Assembly: GCA_010356995.1 (NCBI GenBank)
Contig: ML996707.1
Span: 372,001 to 436,000 of the forward strand
Source of the DNA: Trichodelitschia bisporula
Taxonomy: Eukaryota > Ascomycota > Dothideomycetes > Phaeotrichales > Phaeotrichaceae
Direction of reading: 5' to 3'
Length of the DNA: 64,000 nucleotides
The first letter of the stretch is position 1; the number at the start of each line of letters is the position of its first letter. This document shows positions 1-4,514 of this stretch, piece by piece. The notes under the pieces are model-generated. The model was given only the letters and a program-made list of their open reading frames with translations, did no database searches and was not told the origin of the DNA. Position numbers and translations under genes: made by a program.

Positions 1-106
1 CGTACATTCTCAAACGAATTATTTTCCTCCTCACCCCCAATATCCCCAATAACCCCAATACCCTCAACGCCCTCAGCACCCTCTCTCTTCTCCGTCTTCC
101 TTTACT

Positions 107-454
107 ATGGCTCCCAGTTTCTGGCAACAGCTGAAAAAGCAGGCCACCGGCCTCCGCGAAAAGACCGCTGCTTACGCTCTCACGAAGAAGGATAGTAGTA
201 AGATAAAGGCTGCCCCCCAGCCTCGCACCTCGCGGGATGCAACCGCCGGTATTCCTCGCCGGCACCAGAACGCGGACGCGTACGTGGCGGTCCTGGGCGA
301 CATCTGATATCCTGAAGGGTTGGATGATACTTATAACCCTGGTTGGGTATCATTTACTATTGTGCCCACGCGGCGCTGGAGCTGGGCTGGCTTCGAGTGT
401 ACCCGTGAGAACGATGCGGACTCCGAGTATAGCGATAGGGAATCCGAATTTTAA
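107..454 (+). pseudogene. Small MAPxxW/SWAG family gene, copy 1, interrupted by an in-frame TGA
   Basis: The reading frame starts at ATG 107 with the family N-terminus (MAPSFWQQLKKQATGL) and meets TGA at 305-307 after 66 codons. The same frame then stays open to TAA at 452-454. It encodes a tail with RRWSWAGFE and an acidic end (DADSEYSDRESEF), matching the RRRSWAGFE tail of copy 4. Most simply this is a family member with one nonsense mutation. A GTACGT donor-like site at 280 lies before the stop, but the nearest acceptor gives a 38-nt intron that shifts the frame, so splicing is not a convincing rescue. There is no signal peptide. The function of the family is not recognised. Confidence 0.6.
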
Positions 455-800
455 GGAAGTTGGAGCGATCGATGCGATGGAGAGGATCGAGGATATCCCA
501 TTCGGTAAGGTACCTTTGATGTCGAAGAAGCGATTGTTTTAGGGACTTAACTGCGGTAGGAGAGTGGGTTGAGATTAGCTGCAATGCTAACAACAATTAA
601 GAATCGAATATGGTCTAACTCGGATAGCTGCCATGCATCGCGTGATGTGAAGTGAACTAAACTGAAATAATTACCCCCACCTTGGTGATATGATGAGCCA
701 CAGATTGGCCTTGCGTACTGCTTAGGAAGGAACATGATCTATTGTGCGTATAGTGGGAGGAAGGGGTAGAGGAGGATACTTAGCATCTATCGTACATTTG

Positions 801-905
801 GACTCGAGAGTCTCTATTCTCTTCTATCTGCCCAGATTATGGGTTCGAGTAAGCACATAGCAGAATCGATACATCGAGACATTATCCGCCCTAGGTCATA
901 TTATT
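801..905. repeat. Conserved noncoding module, unit 1
   Basis: Contains GACTCGAGAGTCTCT, then CCCAGATTATGGGTTCGAGTAAGC, split here as CCCAGATT and GGTTCGAGTAAGC, then a TCGAGACATTATCC stretch. The same series recurs about 1525-1612 and 2813-3021. No open frame is conserved across the three copies. Confidence 0.5.
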
Positions 906-961
906 CGTTTCTGGGCGTTAGAACTTCACATTCATCAGGCTATACTTGAAGACTCACATCA

Positions 962-979
962 GTGATGAACTTCCATCAC
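962..979. promoter_or_regulatory. Inverted repeat GTGATG-N6-CATCAC upstream of copy 2
   Basis: A perfect 6-bp inverted repeat with a 6-bp spacer (AACTTC), 169 bp before the ATG of copy 2. The same palindrome recurs at comparable distances before copies 3 and 4, which suggests a binding site for a dimeric regulator (inference). Confidence 0.45.
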
Positions 980-1130
980 GCCCATCAACTTCCAAACCTC
1001 ACGAAATCTCAACCGTTATCACAATCTCAAGGGCCTAGGAAGTATATATACACGCCGTCCATCCTCCAACGAATCTTGTTTTCCTCGCCAGTCCTCTCTA
1101 CACCCTATCTCCTCTCCTTCTTCCTTCAAA

Positions 1131-1316
1131 ATGGCTCCCCGCCTCTGGTCCCTGCTAAAAAGGCAAGCCGCCGGCCTGCGCGACGAGCTCCGCGAAAAGA
1201 TCGAAAAGCAAGCCGCTGGGCTCCGCAACGAGCTCCGCGACAAGCTCCCCACTCGCATTCTCACGAAGAAGGGCCGTGGTAAGATGCCTAGGCTTGCGAA
1301 GACGCGGTCGGTTTAG
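1131..1316 (+). CDS. Small MAPxxW family protein, copy 2 (short form)
   Basis: 61 residues, beginning MAPRLWSLLKRQAAGLRDEL. W6, L9, A13, L16 and L20 have 3-4-3-4 spacing, predicting an amphipathic helix with a basic face. The helix segment is repeated inside the protein (KQAAGLRDEL then KQAAGLRNEL). It ends in a Lys/Arg-rich stretch at TAG 1314-1316. The SWAG tail of copies 1, 3 and 4 is absent and was not found further downstream in this unit, so the copy is a natural short form or a truncated gene. The start is supported by a leader conserved with copies 3 and 4 and a TATATATA stretch about 90 bp upstream. Function unknown. Confidence 0.55.
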   Translation: MAPRLWSLLKRQAAGLRDELREKIEKQAAGLRNELRDKLPTRILTKKGRGKMPRLAKTRSV

Positions 1317-1524
1317 GAGTTTAGCTGCGACGGGGTGTTTGATCTGGGGCCTTTTTGCGATACCGACTTGGAGTTAGGCGTTTTTGGGTTGGTGATAGAA
1401 ATCTAGAAATTGAAATTAGTCCGATGAAGATAGCAACCATGTGGAAGTGAAATGAAATGATTACCACTAACTTAGAATATGAAGGGAGAGGAGAGGAGCA
1501 AAGGATATTAGTATCGTACATCTT

Positions 1525-1612
1525 GACTCAAGAGTCTCTACTCTTTTTTGTCCGCCCAGATTGTAGGCTCGAGTAAGCGCGTGTCGGCTCTGGAAAATCG
1601 AGACGTTATCCG
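1525..1612. repeat. Conserved noncoding module, unit 2
   Basis: Same order of blocks as at 801-905: GACTCAAGAGTCTCTACT, CGCCCAGATT, GGCTCGAGTAAGC and ATCGAGACGTTATCCG. Confidence 0.5.
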
Positions 1613-1894
1613 GTTGAACTCATTTCCTTAATATACACATTCTTCGTCAATAGGCGTCAGTCTTCCACTAGGTGGAGGCGCCCGCCTTGTGGACAGTCAA
1701 AGACTTCATACATATGAAAGACGTGTTGAAGACATCGTACGCTTCAAAGAGTAAGCGTTGAAGGCTTTCACTACGTTCCTCTGCGAGCGTTCCTCTCAAG
1801 CGTCTCTACGAGCGTCTTGCTAGAGCGTAGTGAGCGGTGGCATATTGAAAAGTGTGAGGATACTCGCCAGACTCCACCAAAAGGCCCAGCATTA

Positions 1895-1912
1895 GTGATG
1901 AACATCCATCAC
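1895..1912. promoter_or_regulatory. Inverted repeat GTGATG-N6-CATCAC upstream of copy 3
   Basis: Same arms as at 962, spacer AACATC, 170 bp before the ATG of copy 3. It is followed by CGTCCATC, also shared with the other units. Confidence 0.45.
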
Positions 1913-2064
1913 GTCCATCCCCTCCCAACCCTCAAACCCCCTCACAATCCCGCAGGCCTAGGAAGTTTTAAATAGCGCCGTACGTCCTCCAGCGAATTCT
2001 TCCACCACCACCTCTCTATACCCTCTCTCCTTTCCTTCTTCCTTCTTCTCCTTCTTCCATCAGA

Positions 2065-2538
2065 ATGGCCCCAAACCGCTGGAACTCGCTAAAAAAGCGA
2101 GCCACCGAGCTCGGTTCGAAGCTCGCCGTTCACACTCACATAAAGAAGGAAAGTAGTAAGAAGAAGAGCACCCCTCGGCCTGTCTCCAAGATCTATGAGT
2201 GGGACGTGACCGCAATGATGTGGCGCCGGATCAAACCTCTTAACCCCGACTGCGCCGTCCAGAGGGATTTCAGGGAACCCGAGCGGGTGTCTACGGCCGA
2301 CCCCGTCCAGAGGTCCTTTAGGAAACCCGAGCGCGCGTCCACGGCCGTCAACGATGCGGAACACGAGCCCATAGACACGCCCCCGCCCTCGCCCGAGCGG
2401 CACAGATCCTGGGCCGGCCAGTCGAATCCATCCGAACATCCCTCCGCAGACTCCGACTACTCAGAACTCTGCGCGGCCATAGAGGCGATGAAGATGATGA
2501 AGACCCCCTCTGAAGAAGCCGCCGAAGACTCCGACTAA
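2065..2538 (+). CDS. Small MAPxxW/SWAG family protein, copy 3
   Basis: 157 residues. The N-terminus is the family amphipathic basic helix (MAPNRWNSLKKRATELGSKL). A middle part carries a tandem duplication (VQRDFREPERVSTA, then VQRSFRKPERASTA). Then come HRSWAGQ and an acidic tail with ELCAAIEAM. Just past the stop TAA (2536-2538), the frame repeats this tail as EELAGAIEAM and stays open to TGA 2665-2667. The tail was therefore duplicated and the second copy cut off where TAC became TAA. No signal peptide or membrane segment is visible. Unknown function; likely intracellular by composition. Confidence 0.6.
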   Translation: MAPNRWNSLKKRATELGSKLAVHTHIKKESSKKKSTPRPVSKIYEWDVTAMMWRRIKPLNPDCAVQRDFREPERVSTADPVQRSFRKPERASTAVNDAEHEPIDTPPPSPERHRSWAGQSNPSEHPSADSDYSELCAAIEAMKMMKTPSEEAAEDSD

Positions 2539-2812
2539 GAGGAACTGGCGGGGGCTATAGAGGCGATGGACACGATCGGGGGTAGGCGGTACCGTAAACA
2601 GCCCCCGGGCTATCGCAGAGGCGATCGGTTTAGGGAGTTGATTTTCTACGGTAGTAGAGGGGGTTGAGATTATGTAGTAATGCTGACTGGAATCAGGAAT
2701 TGGATATGGTTTAACTTTGGATAGATGCCATGTATCGCGTGAAGTTAAGTGAACTGATGTGCGCATGATGGGAGAAAGGGGAATAGGTGAGGATACTTAG
2801 CATTGTTGTGAT

Positions 2813-3021
2813 TAGACCCGAGGGTCTCTACTCTCTTCTTTTCTTGCCTTCATCTCAATCTTCGCTTAACACAAGTCGCCCATTGCCCGTGTCAAGCCTT
2901 GCTCCCATTTCGTTTCGTTCGGCGCCGTAGCAAGCAAGGCTGACTTTCGTTCATCCGCCCAGATTCCGGGCTCGAGTAAGCGCATGACAGGCTCAGTACA
3001 TCGAGATGTTGTCCGATCTAT
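2813..3021. repeat. Conserved noncoding module, unit 3, split by about 100 bp of extra sequence
   Basis: GACCCGAGGGTCTCTACT begins the module. An insert of about 100 bp follows, and then CGCCCAGATT, GGCTCGAGTAAGC and CATCGAGATGTTGTCCG. The insert shows no recognisable terminal repeats. Confidence 0.45.
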
Positions 3022-3105
3022 GTCGCGTTCTCCGTTAATACGCATTCTGCGTCAATAGGCGTTGGACTTCCATACTCACCAAGCCGCACCAGAATCTCAG
3101 CACCA

Positions 3106-3123
3106 GTGATGAAGCCACATCAC
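3106..3123. promoter_or_regulatory. Inverted repeat GTGATG-N6-CATCAC upstream of copy 4
   Basis: Same arms, spacer AAGCCA, 190 bp before the ATG of copy 4. The arms are kept while the spacer has changed at several positions relative to units 2 and 3. Confidence 0.45.
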
Positions 3124-3295
3124 GTCCATCAGCTTCCAAACCTCACGAACCTTGAAGTTATATCACGTCCACCCCTTTCCAGCCCTCACACCCTCTAACC
3201 CCCCTCACAACACCAGATTCCCTAGATCCATATAACGCCCCCCCACCCACCCCCTCATCTCCCCCCCCAAACCCCCAAACCTCTCCTCTTCAAGA

Positions 3296-3736
3296 ATGGC
3301 TCCTTCGCTGTGGTCCTTCTTAAAGAAGCGCGCCTCCGGGCTCCGCTGCAAGCTGACCTCGCGCAAGCTCACCGGGCGCAAGTTCTCCCTCCGCCGCAAG
3401 AGAAAGTCCCCCCCTCATCCCACCCCCTCCCGCCTTGGCTCCTGGGACTCGATAATTTCGGGCGCCCACCACCGGCGCTACGACCCTGCTCATCCGGATC
3501 GCAACACGCACTTATGGGATGTAGAAGAAGATACTGGGAGGCTGCACGAGCCGGATTGGAAGTTCGTGGTGCCGCGCGAGGAGCGGAATGAGTACACGCG
3601 GCGGAGATCCTGGGCCGGGTTTGAGCTTGTCGATGAGGTGAAGTCGAGCGAGTCTGGTGAGAGTTTTGAGGAGATTGGGGCTGAGGAGGGGGATGAGGCT
3701 GTCAGTATGGAACTCGCGAGGGCGTGGACGAGATAG
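3296..3736 (+). CDS. Small MAPxxW/SWAG family protein, copy 4 (longest intact-looking member)
   Basis: 146 residues in one exon. Residues 1-20 (MAPSLWSFLKKRASGLRCKL) give the family amphipathic helix. They are followed by a strongly basic stretch (RKFSLRRKRK), a middle part with HLWDVEEDTGRLHEPDW, the tail motif RRRSWAGFE and an acidic end. The polarity (basic N-terminus, acidic C-terminus) is shared by copies 1, 3 and 4. No known domain is recognised. The gene has the shared GTGATG/CATCAC palindrome 190 bp upstream and a CATATAA stretch before the leader. It is the best full-length representative of the family here. Confidence 0.6.
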   Translation: MAPSLWSFLKKRASGLRCKLTSRKLTGRKFSLRRKRKSPPHPTPSRLGSWDSIISGAHHRRYDPAHPDRNTHLWDVEEDTGRLHEPDWKFVVPREERNEYTRRRSWAGFELVDEVKSSESGESFEEIGAEEGDEAVSMELARAWTR

Positions 3737-3857
3737 GGGTTTGGTCTGATGGGGAAGAACAGTTTGAAACCTGGAGTACTTGGAGTTGGGGTACGGGCTT
3801 TTGGGACTAATGATAGGAATTGGAATTGAACTGACTTGGCTAGCAACTGCATATATC

Positions 3858-3885
3858 GAAGTGAAGTGAAGTGAAGTGAAGTGAA
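3858..3885. repeat. GAAGT pentanucleotide microsatellite
   Basis: Five GAAGT units plus a partial one, 3' of copy 4. The same position in units 1-3 has one or two GAAGTGAA-like motifs, so this is an expansion of a family-wide 3' motif. Confidence 0.8.
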
Positions 3886-4514
3886 CTGACTGCCGCTAAC
3901 TTACATAGTAGACAGAGATGCCTTAGATTAGCCCGCATACTATTTGTCCCTGCAGTGATCGGCACTGTCATTATGCGGCCCTTCTTTAGCGTCGAACGTA
4001 CCGGCGGCTAAAAGGTAGTGCATAGCTATCCGGCGACCTTTGACTTAGATATCGATCAGCTTAGCAGCACTCAACCGAGCCGTGGGAACGACCACTCACA
4101 TAGAACTCTGCCCAAGGAGCACACCAGTCGACACCCCCCCCTCATTCACCATCAGTACAACAAGCGGAAGAATACCTCATCCATTGACACGATTTTACAT
4201 ACCCGCCATCCCCTCATCTCATGCACACTCCAAAACACCGTATCCGTGCGTATATACCATAACCTCATAACCCTCATCCCCAGCCCATCGGCCCGCTCAT
4301 CTCAATCATCGTGGGTATCAAGAACCTTTGTCTCGGTCCAAACGTGCCCAGTAAGCCATCATGCCCCATATCCCATGCCAAGTTCTTCTCACTCACACTC
4401 CACAAGCTCTAGGCGTAAACAGGAGTAGGGAGCTCGCACAGCCACCCCCCATCGGCCCACAAGCATCATGCCGCAAAGAAACAGCACCAAAGAAAAAATG
4501 CCACCGAAAGTCGT
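3886..4514. other. Intergenic, no gene seen
   Basis: C-rich sequence between the array and the 3' end of pbs2. Short open frames here have no recognisable content. It probably includes the pbs2 3' UTR. Confidence 0.5.

Follow-up and report, generated by a model that had tools for sequence, protein, structure and literature searches.

The window analysed here is a stretch of 64,000 nucleotides (bases 372001-436000 of contig C21, in a genome of 25.65 Mb and 30 contigs), whose gene style suggests a filamentous ascomycete as its source. Its first 3900 positions form the right-hand part of a tandem array of small genes, which spans about C21:366.3-375.9 kb and starts about 5.7 kb left of the window. 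The array very probably represents a real coding family in turnover. The fuller explanation that we tentatively favour is that of a locus-restricted tandem family in birth-and-death turnover, whose product would be a disordered intracellular protein that touches membranes through a helix. According to this explanation, whole units, complete with an upstream module and a 3' module, would have been copied in tandem, presumably by unequal exchange, and the copies would then have diverged and decayed one by one. The protein would stay inside the cell and be mostly disordered, with an N-terminal helix (residues 3-20) as its main folded part. The helix face formed by W6, L9, A13, L16 and L20, with Lys and Arg around it, would attach the protein to acidic membrane surfaces; its middle part and an acidic end with an SWAG motif would remain in solution and may bind partners. 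As a kind of thing the array is ordinary; as a sequence, matched in none of the libraries searched, it is new.

By self-comparison, alignment of the upstream and downstream DNA, and translation, we defined eight units, named z, a, b, c, c1, c2, c3 and c4 from left to right, the last four being copies 1-4 of the window. All eight lie adjacent to each other on the same (+) strand and have been copied together with flanking DNA, with a start-to-start spacing of 0.9-1.8 kb. An earlier reading of the window, based on the letters and their open frames (the sequence-only reading), had described four neighbouring genes sharing an N-terminus, and these are indeed present, with starts at window positions 107, 1131, 2065 and 3296. 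The leftward copy count that it had suggested added three more copies (a, b and c, starting at C21:367874, 369145 and 370336) and unit z, whose ATG lies at C21:366577. There are thus at least seven recognisable gene copies and an eighth unit, z, each with a promoter-like module. Duplication of whole units, previously proposed from shared upstream and downstream modules, was borne out by self-comparison and flank alignment.

Three blocks could be distinguished in the proteins. Block 1 comprises the N-terminal 20 residues, among which W6, L9, K10 and L16 are invariant in all seven copies, position 11 is always K or R, and A13 and L20 occur in five and six copies, respectively. The sequence-only reading had regarded W6, L9, A13 and L16 as fixed, which is true of the four window copies (M1, A2, P3, W6, L9, K10, A13 and L16 invariant) but, for A13, not of the whole array; its remark that position 20 is usually L applies both to the window (three of four copies) and to the array as a whole. 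The complete genome was searched with a DNA form of the pattern M-A-x-x-x-W-x-x-[LF]-K-[KR]; five exact matches were found, all of them in the array and on the same strand, and the reversed pattern used as a control had none. Units b and c were missed by this pattern because b has a GTG start and a changed second codon, and c a one-codon deletion. Block 2, the SWAG motif, appears as WSWAG in c1, RSWAG in c3 and c4, RSCAG in b and RSWAI in c; it is absent from c2 and perhaps has a counterpart in the NWDGF of a. It had been claimed that three copies share (R/H)xSWAG followed by an acidic end; in copy 1, the WSWAG lies past an in-frame TGA. The proposed polarity from a basic start to an acidic end is clear in copies 3 and 4 but not in copy 2, whose end is basic. 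The first 40 residues carry a positive net charge in each of the seven recognisable copies, ranging from +4 to +14. Block 3, a tail that the sequence-only reading had missed, is best kept in the form FG(K/R)(M/V)PxL(A/S)KTxS; its versions in b, c and c2 are FGRMPALSKTQS, FGKVPCLAKTQS and GRGKMPRLAKTRS, respectively, and c1 has a looser counterpart, FGKVPLMSKKRL, in the +1 frame.

Several signs indicate that the copies are, or recently were, coding genes. In nucleotide alignments anchored by 220 bases on each side, 58 of 107 gaps inside the frames were multiples of three, versus 33 of 140 in the flanks (21 pairs of seven copies, which are not independent of each other). Two other MAFFT settings agreed (60/111 versus 40/157, and 71/123 versus 49/176), and 75-80% of the aligned coding columns were in a common frame. 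The G+C content of third codon positions (GC3) was 0.62-0.75 in all eight frames, compared with a G+C content of 0.41-0.56 in the 200-base flanks; an exon of the neighbouring kinase gene has a GC3 of 0.72. Over the N-terminal 20 codons, and with c excluded for its one-codon gap, the six other copies gave a ratio of nonsynonymous to synonymous substitution rates (dN/dS) of 0.38 in frame and 0.60-1.50 in the five other frames. Similarity by BLOSUM scores was also highest in the proper frame among all six, for block 1 in six copies (2.67 versus at most 2.18; column shuffles reached the observed value in 0 of 3000 cases) as well as for block 2 in four copies (2.98 versus at most 2.70; reached by 0.4% of column shuffles). 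A stop-count simulation for the seven frames gave joint products of 9.4e-4, 2.4e-6 and 1.6e-8 at 0.1, 0.2 and 0.3 substitutions per site, on which we do not rely because the frames were chosen by their stop positions and the copies are not independent. The genes are apparently intronless.

With regard to the product, the structure prediction for copy 4 that had been suggested previously was run with AlphaFold together with the three other window copies. In the resulting model the N-terminal helix at residues 3-20 is the best modelled part, with a mean predicted local distance difference test score (pLDDT) of about 79 in residues 1-10 and of 63 in residues 11-20. Confidence is low elsewhere, with values near 50 outside this helix and a C-terminal one; 12 of the 146 residues reach a pLDDT of 70, and the predicted template modelling score is 0.16. 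From this model, an N-terminal helix followed by a disordered chain is probable. Residues W6, L9, A13, L16 and L20 fall within one 80-degree helix arc, an arrangement matched by 18 of 8568 choices of five positions, although it should be noted that the five were chosen after their conservation had been seen; for the first four (W6, L9, A13 and L16), 72 of 3060 choices match. The hydrophobic moment of residues 3-20 beat shuffles at the 0.05 level in five of the seven copies. The prediction and the one-face positions speak for the largely amphipathic N-terminal helix of the sequence-only reading, and the moment does so in most copies but not in all. Membrane docking as the mode of action, to which the helix model and the one-face positions point, is conceivable, and we put it forward with reserve.

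Some observations weigh against the favoured explanation. In addition to the dependence among the 21 copy pairs in the gap test, third-position changes were not significantly in excess in the N-terminal block (permutation p 0.13), and dN/dS over the whole alignment was 0.58, with silent sites near saturation. Furthermore, the model of copy 4 also holds a low-confidence C-terminal helix (residues 133-145), and the hydrophobic moment failed at the 0.05 level in copy 1 (0.057) and copy 4 (0.29).

The copies differ greatly in their state of preservation. Four of the seven (a, c2, c3 and c4) are open from an ATG and three (b, c and c1) are disabled, and none of the seven combines the three blocks in a single ATG-started open frame. 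In b, GTG occupies the ATG position and the frame runs past the usual tail stop, and c has an in-frame TAG at codon 47. Copy 1 begins with an open piece of 66 amino acids (107-304), starting MAPSFWQQLKKQATGLREKT, which is followed by a TGA (305-307). Its translation continues in the same frame with a second piece, likely a relic (308-454), that carries the SWAG block at about 377 and ends in a TAA (452-454); a loose remnant of the tail block, IPFGKVPLMSKKRLF, lies in the +1 frame at 458-542, as judged by DNA alignment to the downstream part of copy 3 (372462-372658 versus 374551-374755). Because its SWAG lies beyond the in-frame TGA, copy 1 is not one open gene. This stop might be spliced out; the alignments, in which c3 reads through the same place, weigh against such splicing. 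Copy 2 (1131-1316, 61 amino acids) has its helix block duplicated internally and contains neither the middle part, nor SWAG, nor an acidic end. Its block 1 passes nearly straight into block 3, its tail, GKMPRLAKTRSV, matches a block found at the C-terminus of other copies, and from 1278 onwards its DNA can be aligned to the end of c, so that this copy looks like the product of an in-frame internal deletion. The stretch 1278-1484 comprises the part of copy 2 that encodes the tail, together with the downstream module (370618-370819 of copy c versus 373278-373484, 71% over 210).

Copy 3 (2065-2538, 157 amino acids) is open and includes SWAG. It has two internal tandem duplications at 2255-2347 and 2428-2576 (listed as repeats of 45 and 71 bases; their spacings, 48 and 78, are multiples of three). 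The present stop codon, a TAA, is located in the second half of the latter repeat, and tail-like DNA follows it out of frame. Copy 4 (3296-3736, 146 amino acids) is also open, with SWAG and an acidic end. No tail block could be recognised in a or c4, and each of the four open copies ends differently; their mutual synonymous distances are 0.89-1.80. Since several copies look broken, the array appears to be partly relic. Repeat-induced point mutation (RIP) as the source of the stops was unsupported, as the RIP indices of the array were like those of its surroundings (mean composite -0.40 with 0 of 10 windows above zero in the array, and -0.55 with 1 of 91 above zero in the rest of 104 kb).

In the upstream module of most units, GTGATGAA is followed by ATCAC or a close variant of it, by a TTCCAAACCTCACG-like stretch and by a TATA-like box, after which come a TCCTCCAACGAATT-like box and a TC-rich leader up to the start codon. 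The TATA-like box is clear in a, c2 and c3 and weaker in the other units, and the TCCTCCAACGAATT-like box is absent from the module of c4. Positions 1-106 of the window hold the end of the module and the leader of copy 1, which could be aligned to the modules upstream of other units; the beginning of this module lies outside the window, at about C21:371902. The modules of copies 2, 3 and 4 are located at 957-1130 (with the TATA-like box at about 1043-1050 and a TC-rich leader), 1890-2064 (by self-comparison and alignment) and 3101-3295 (with a portion next to the start codon that is more diverged than in the other modules of the window), respectively. An inverted element, GTGATG-N6-CATCAC, which looks like a dimer-binding site, is found in these three modules at 962-979, 1895-1912 and 3106-3123; it also occurs in the copy 1 module left of the window, and altered forms are present in other units. 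Downstream, the module of copy 3 covers 2551-2755 (73% to 372462-372658), and a last, weak trace, partly a simple GAAGT repeat, lies at 3850-3900 at the right end of the array (375850-375894 and 375866-375900), all on the + strand. With the c2 module as a DNA query, seven places including itself were found in the genome, all in the array (z, b twice, c, c1, c2 and c4); the modules of a and c3 were detected only by the closer self-comparison and flank alignment.

Among the seven copies, mean pairwise identity was 0.65 in the upstream module and 0.67 in the first 60 coding bases, 0.50 in the rest of the coding part (45% gap columns) and 0.57 in the 180 bases downstream (39% gap columns). The corresponding values for pairs with z were 0.67, 0.47, 0.46 and 0.55. 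In z, a module like those of the other units precedes a 203-residue frame without recognisable kinship. Its first 20 residues scored 0.7, whereas six members reached 47-53 when each was left out in turn, and ranked 36th of 1885 ATG-started stretches in 104 kb, with a within-sequence shuffle p of 0.02. Unit z was therefore rejected as a coding relative, and what it demonstrably has in common with the other units is limited to the upstream module. The unusual side of the array is that the upstream module and the helix have been kept while the remainder was rewritten, and that z has the module with an unrelated frame.

The sequence-only reading knew of no described family with such a layout, and the libraries searched agree with it. 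None of the eight units had a Pfam match above cut-off, the broken ones being searched as pieces; the two scans contained five array pieces each, next to two pieces of the kinase in the first and among ten proteins in all in the second. Nor was there a match for c2, c3, c4, z, a and b in NCBIfam (c and c1 excluded); the best Pfam scores, both below cut-off, were PF16907 for copy 4 (18 bits versus 29.1) and PF24210 for z (17.2 versus 27). A profile of the four window copies had no match in the PDB, and 2 viral and 11 prokaryotic stretches matched one peptide pattern in viral and prokaryotic contigs, none of which was confirmed. A structured RNA was rejected, no Rfam family reaching its gathering score in window positions 1-4500 (the left units lie outside this search). 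Protein searches of the genome itself, which score best candidates only and exclude a, c, c1 and c2 as queries (c4 with E up to 0.001; z, c3 and b with E up to 10), returned array members and two chance-level matches (E 0.70 and 0.32), and no second locus was found in the genome by the DNA-module, pattern and protein searches. The array is an orphan in the sense of these libraries (Pfam, NCBIfam, PDB and viral/prokaryotic contigs), fungal proteomes being outside that scope. A literature search, with most subscription journals outside its scope, gave nothing on the gene family of the array.

It is somewhat unlikely, though to be taken seriously, that the array is a gene graveyard, with formerly coding copies under relaxed selection and no present function in any of them. 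The GTG start of b, the in-frame stops of c and c1, the internal deletion of c2, the stop of c3 with its out-of-frame tail-like DNA and the missing tail of a and c4 would all fit such a history, as would the coding identity of 0.50 (45% gap columns) beyond the first 60 bases, close to the 0.46 of pairs with the unrelated frame of z. However, a, c2, c3 and c4 (four of seven) keep an ATG and an open frame at synonymous distances of 0.89-1.80, and the gaps keep frame. A gene nursery, in which a promoter-plus-helix cassette would be copied in tandem and the remaining coding part freely replaced, deleted or reframed, comes into consideration because z has the shared module with an unrelated 203-residue frame and a, c2, c3 and c4 end differently; we regard it as unlikely.

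Other explanations concern what the N-terminus does. The net charge of its first 40 residues, positive in every copy, could mean that they contact DNA or RNA, with the acidic end as a modulator, but, of the four invariant residues, W6, L9 and L16 are hydrophobic and just one, K10, is basic, and no nucleic-acid-binding family was matched in Pfam, so this seems quite unlikely. A mitochondrial presequence or other organelle address would suit copy 4, which begins MAPSLWSFLKKRASGLRCKL and has a predicted helix without acidic residues and a net charge of +14 in its first 40 residues. Acidic residues are unusual in presequences, which are also usually variable, whereas six of the seven copies (all but copy 4) have D or E at helix position 15 or 18 and the helix is the best conserved part; such an address is improbable. 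Least probable of all is a membrane-disrupting helix of an antimicrobial-like or self-recognition peptide family. It would account for the fast turnover and agrees with the cationic Trp/Leu/Lys helix, the rapid divergence after residue 20 and the form of copy 2 (61 residues, a duplicated helix block and a basic end), but inspection by eye shows no signal peptide, such a family would not typically have the long, acidic, disordered end of copies 3 and 4, and neither Pfam nor NCBIfam gave a match.

Lineage-restricted (orphan) tandem gene clusters under birth-and-death evolution in fungi are the general class to which the favoured explanation would assign the array. Like them, it occupies a single locus, consists of whole-unit copies that diverge fast, mixes open and broken copies and has no library match. 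Unlike them, its helix, SWAG and tail blocks are unmatched elsewhere in what was searched, and it is peculiar in that the upstream modules (0.65) are about as well kept as the helix-coding part (0.67). In its proposed mode of action only, the protein would resemble alpha-synuclein and yeast Hsp12, with a predicted Lys-rich amphipathic N-terminal helix on a probably disordered chain, and, in copies 3 and 4, alpha-synuclein in its acidic end; in contrast to the 11-residue repeats of alpha-synuclein, it has one short 18-residue helix, and Pfam scans of the array proteins matched neither alpha-synuclein nor Hsp12. Rows of young genes such as this array are a common kind of thing. If its frames are expressed, one locus would show both the making and the loss of a young protein family, with the promoter and a 20-residue helix conserved and the C-terminal part in flux, and would offer a small set of natural variants for testing whether one Trp-Leu helix is sufficient for a disordered protein to stay useful. 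If the array is a relic, it would be a decaying gene cluster of an ordinary kind.

Between units c and c1 there is a 256-base foldback element (C21:370868-371123), with perfect 14-base terminal inverted repeats (TTGGGTGATACGCT), 88-base arms that are 91% complementary and a 49-base loop. A dispersed transposon was rejected for this element, since a genome search matched only the element itself. Just left of the array, C21:363458-366025 holds an 856-residue open frame, rich in Thr, Pro and Ser and with internal repeats, which has no Pfam match. On the other side, the array ends at about window position 3900, and some 600 bases further on lies a protein-kinase gene (Pkinase match), which is on the opposite strand, has its 3' end towards the array and which we take to encode a Pbs2-type mitogen-activated protein kinase kinase.

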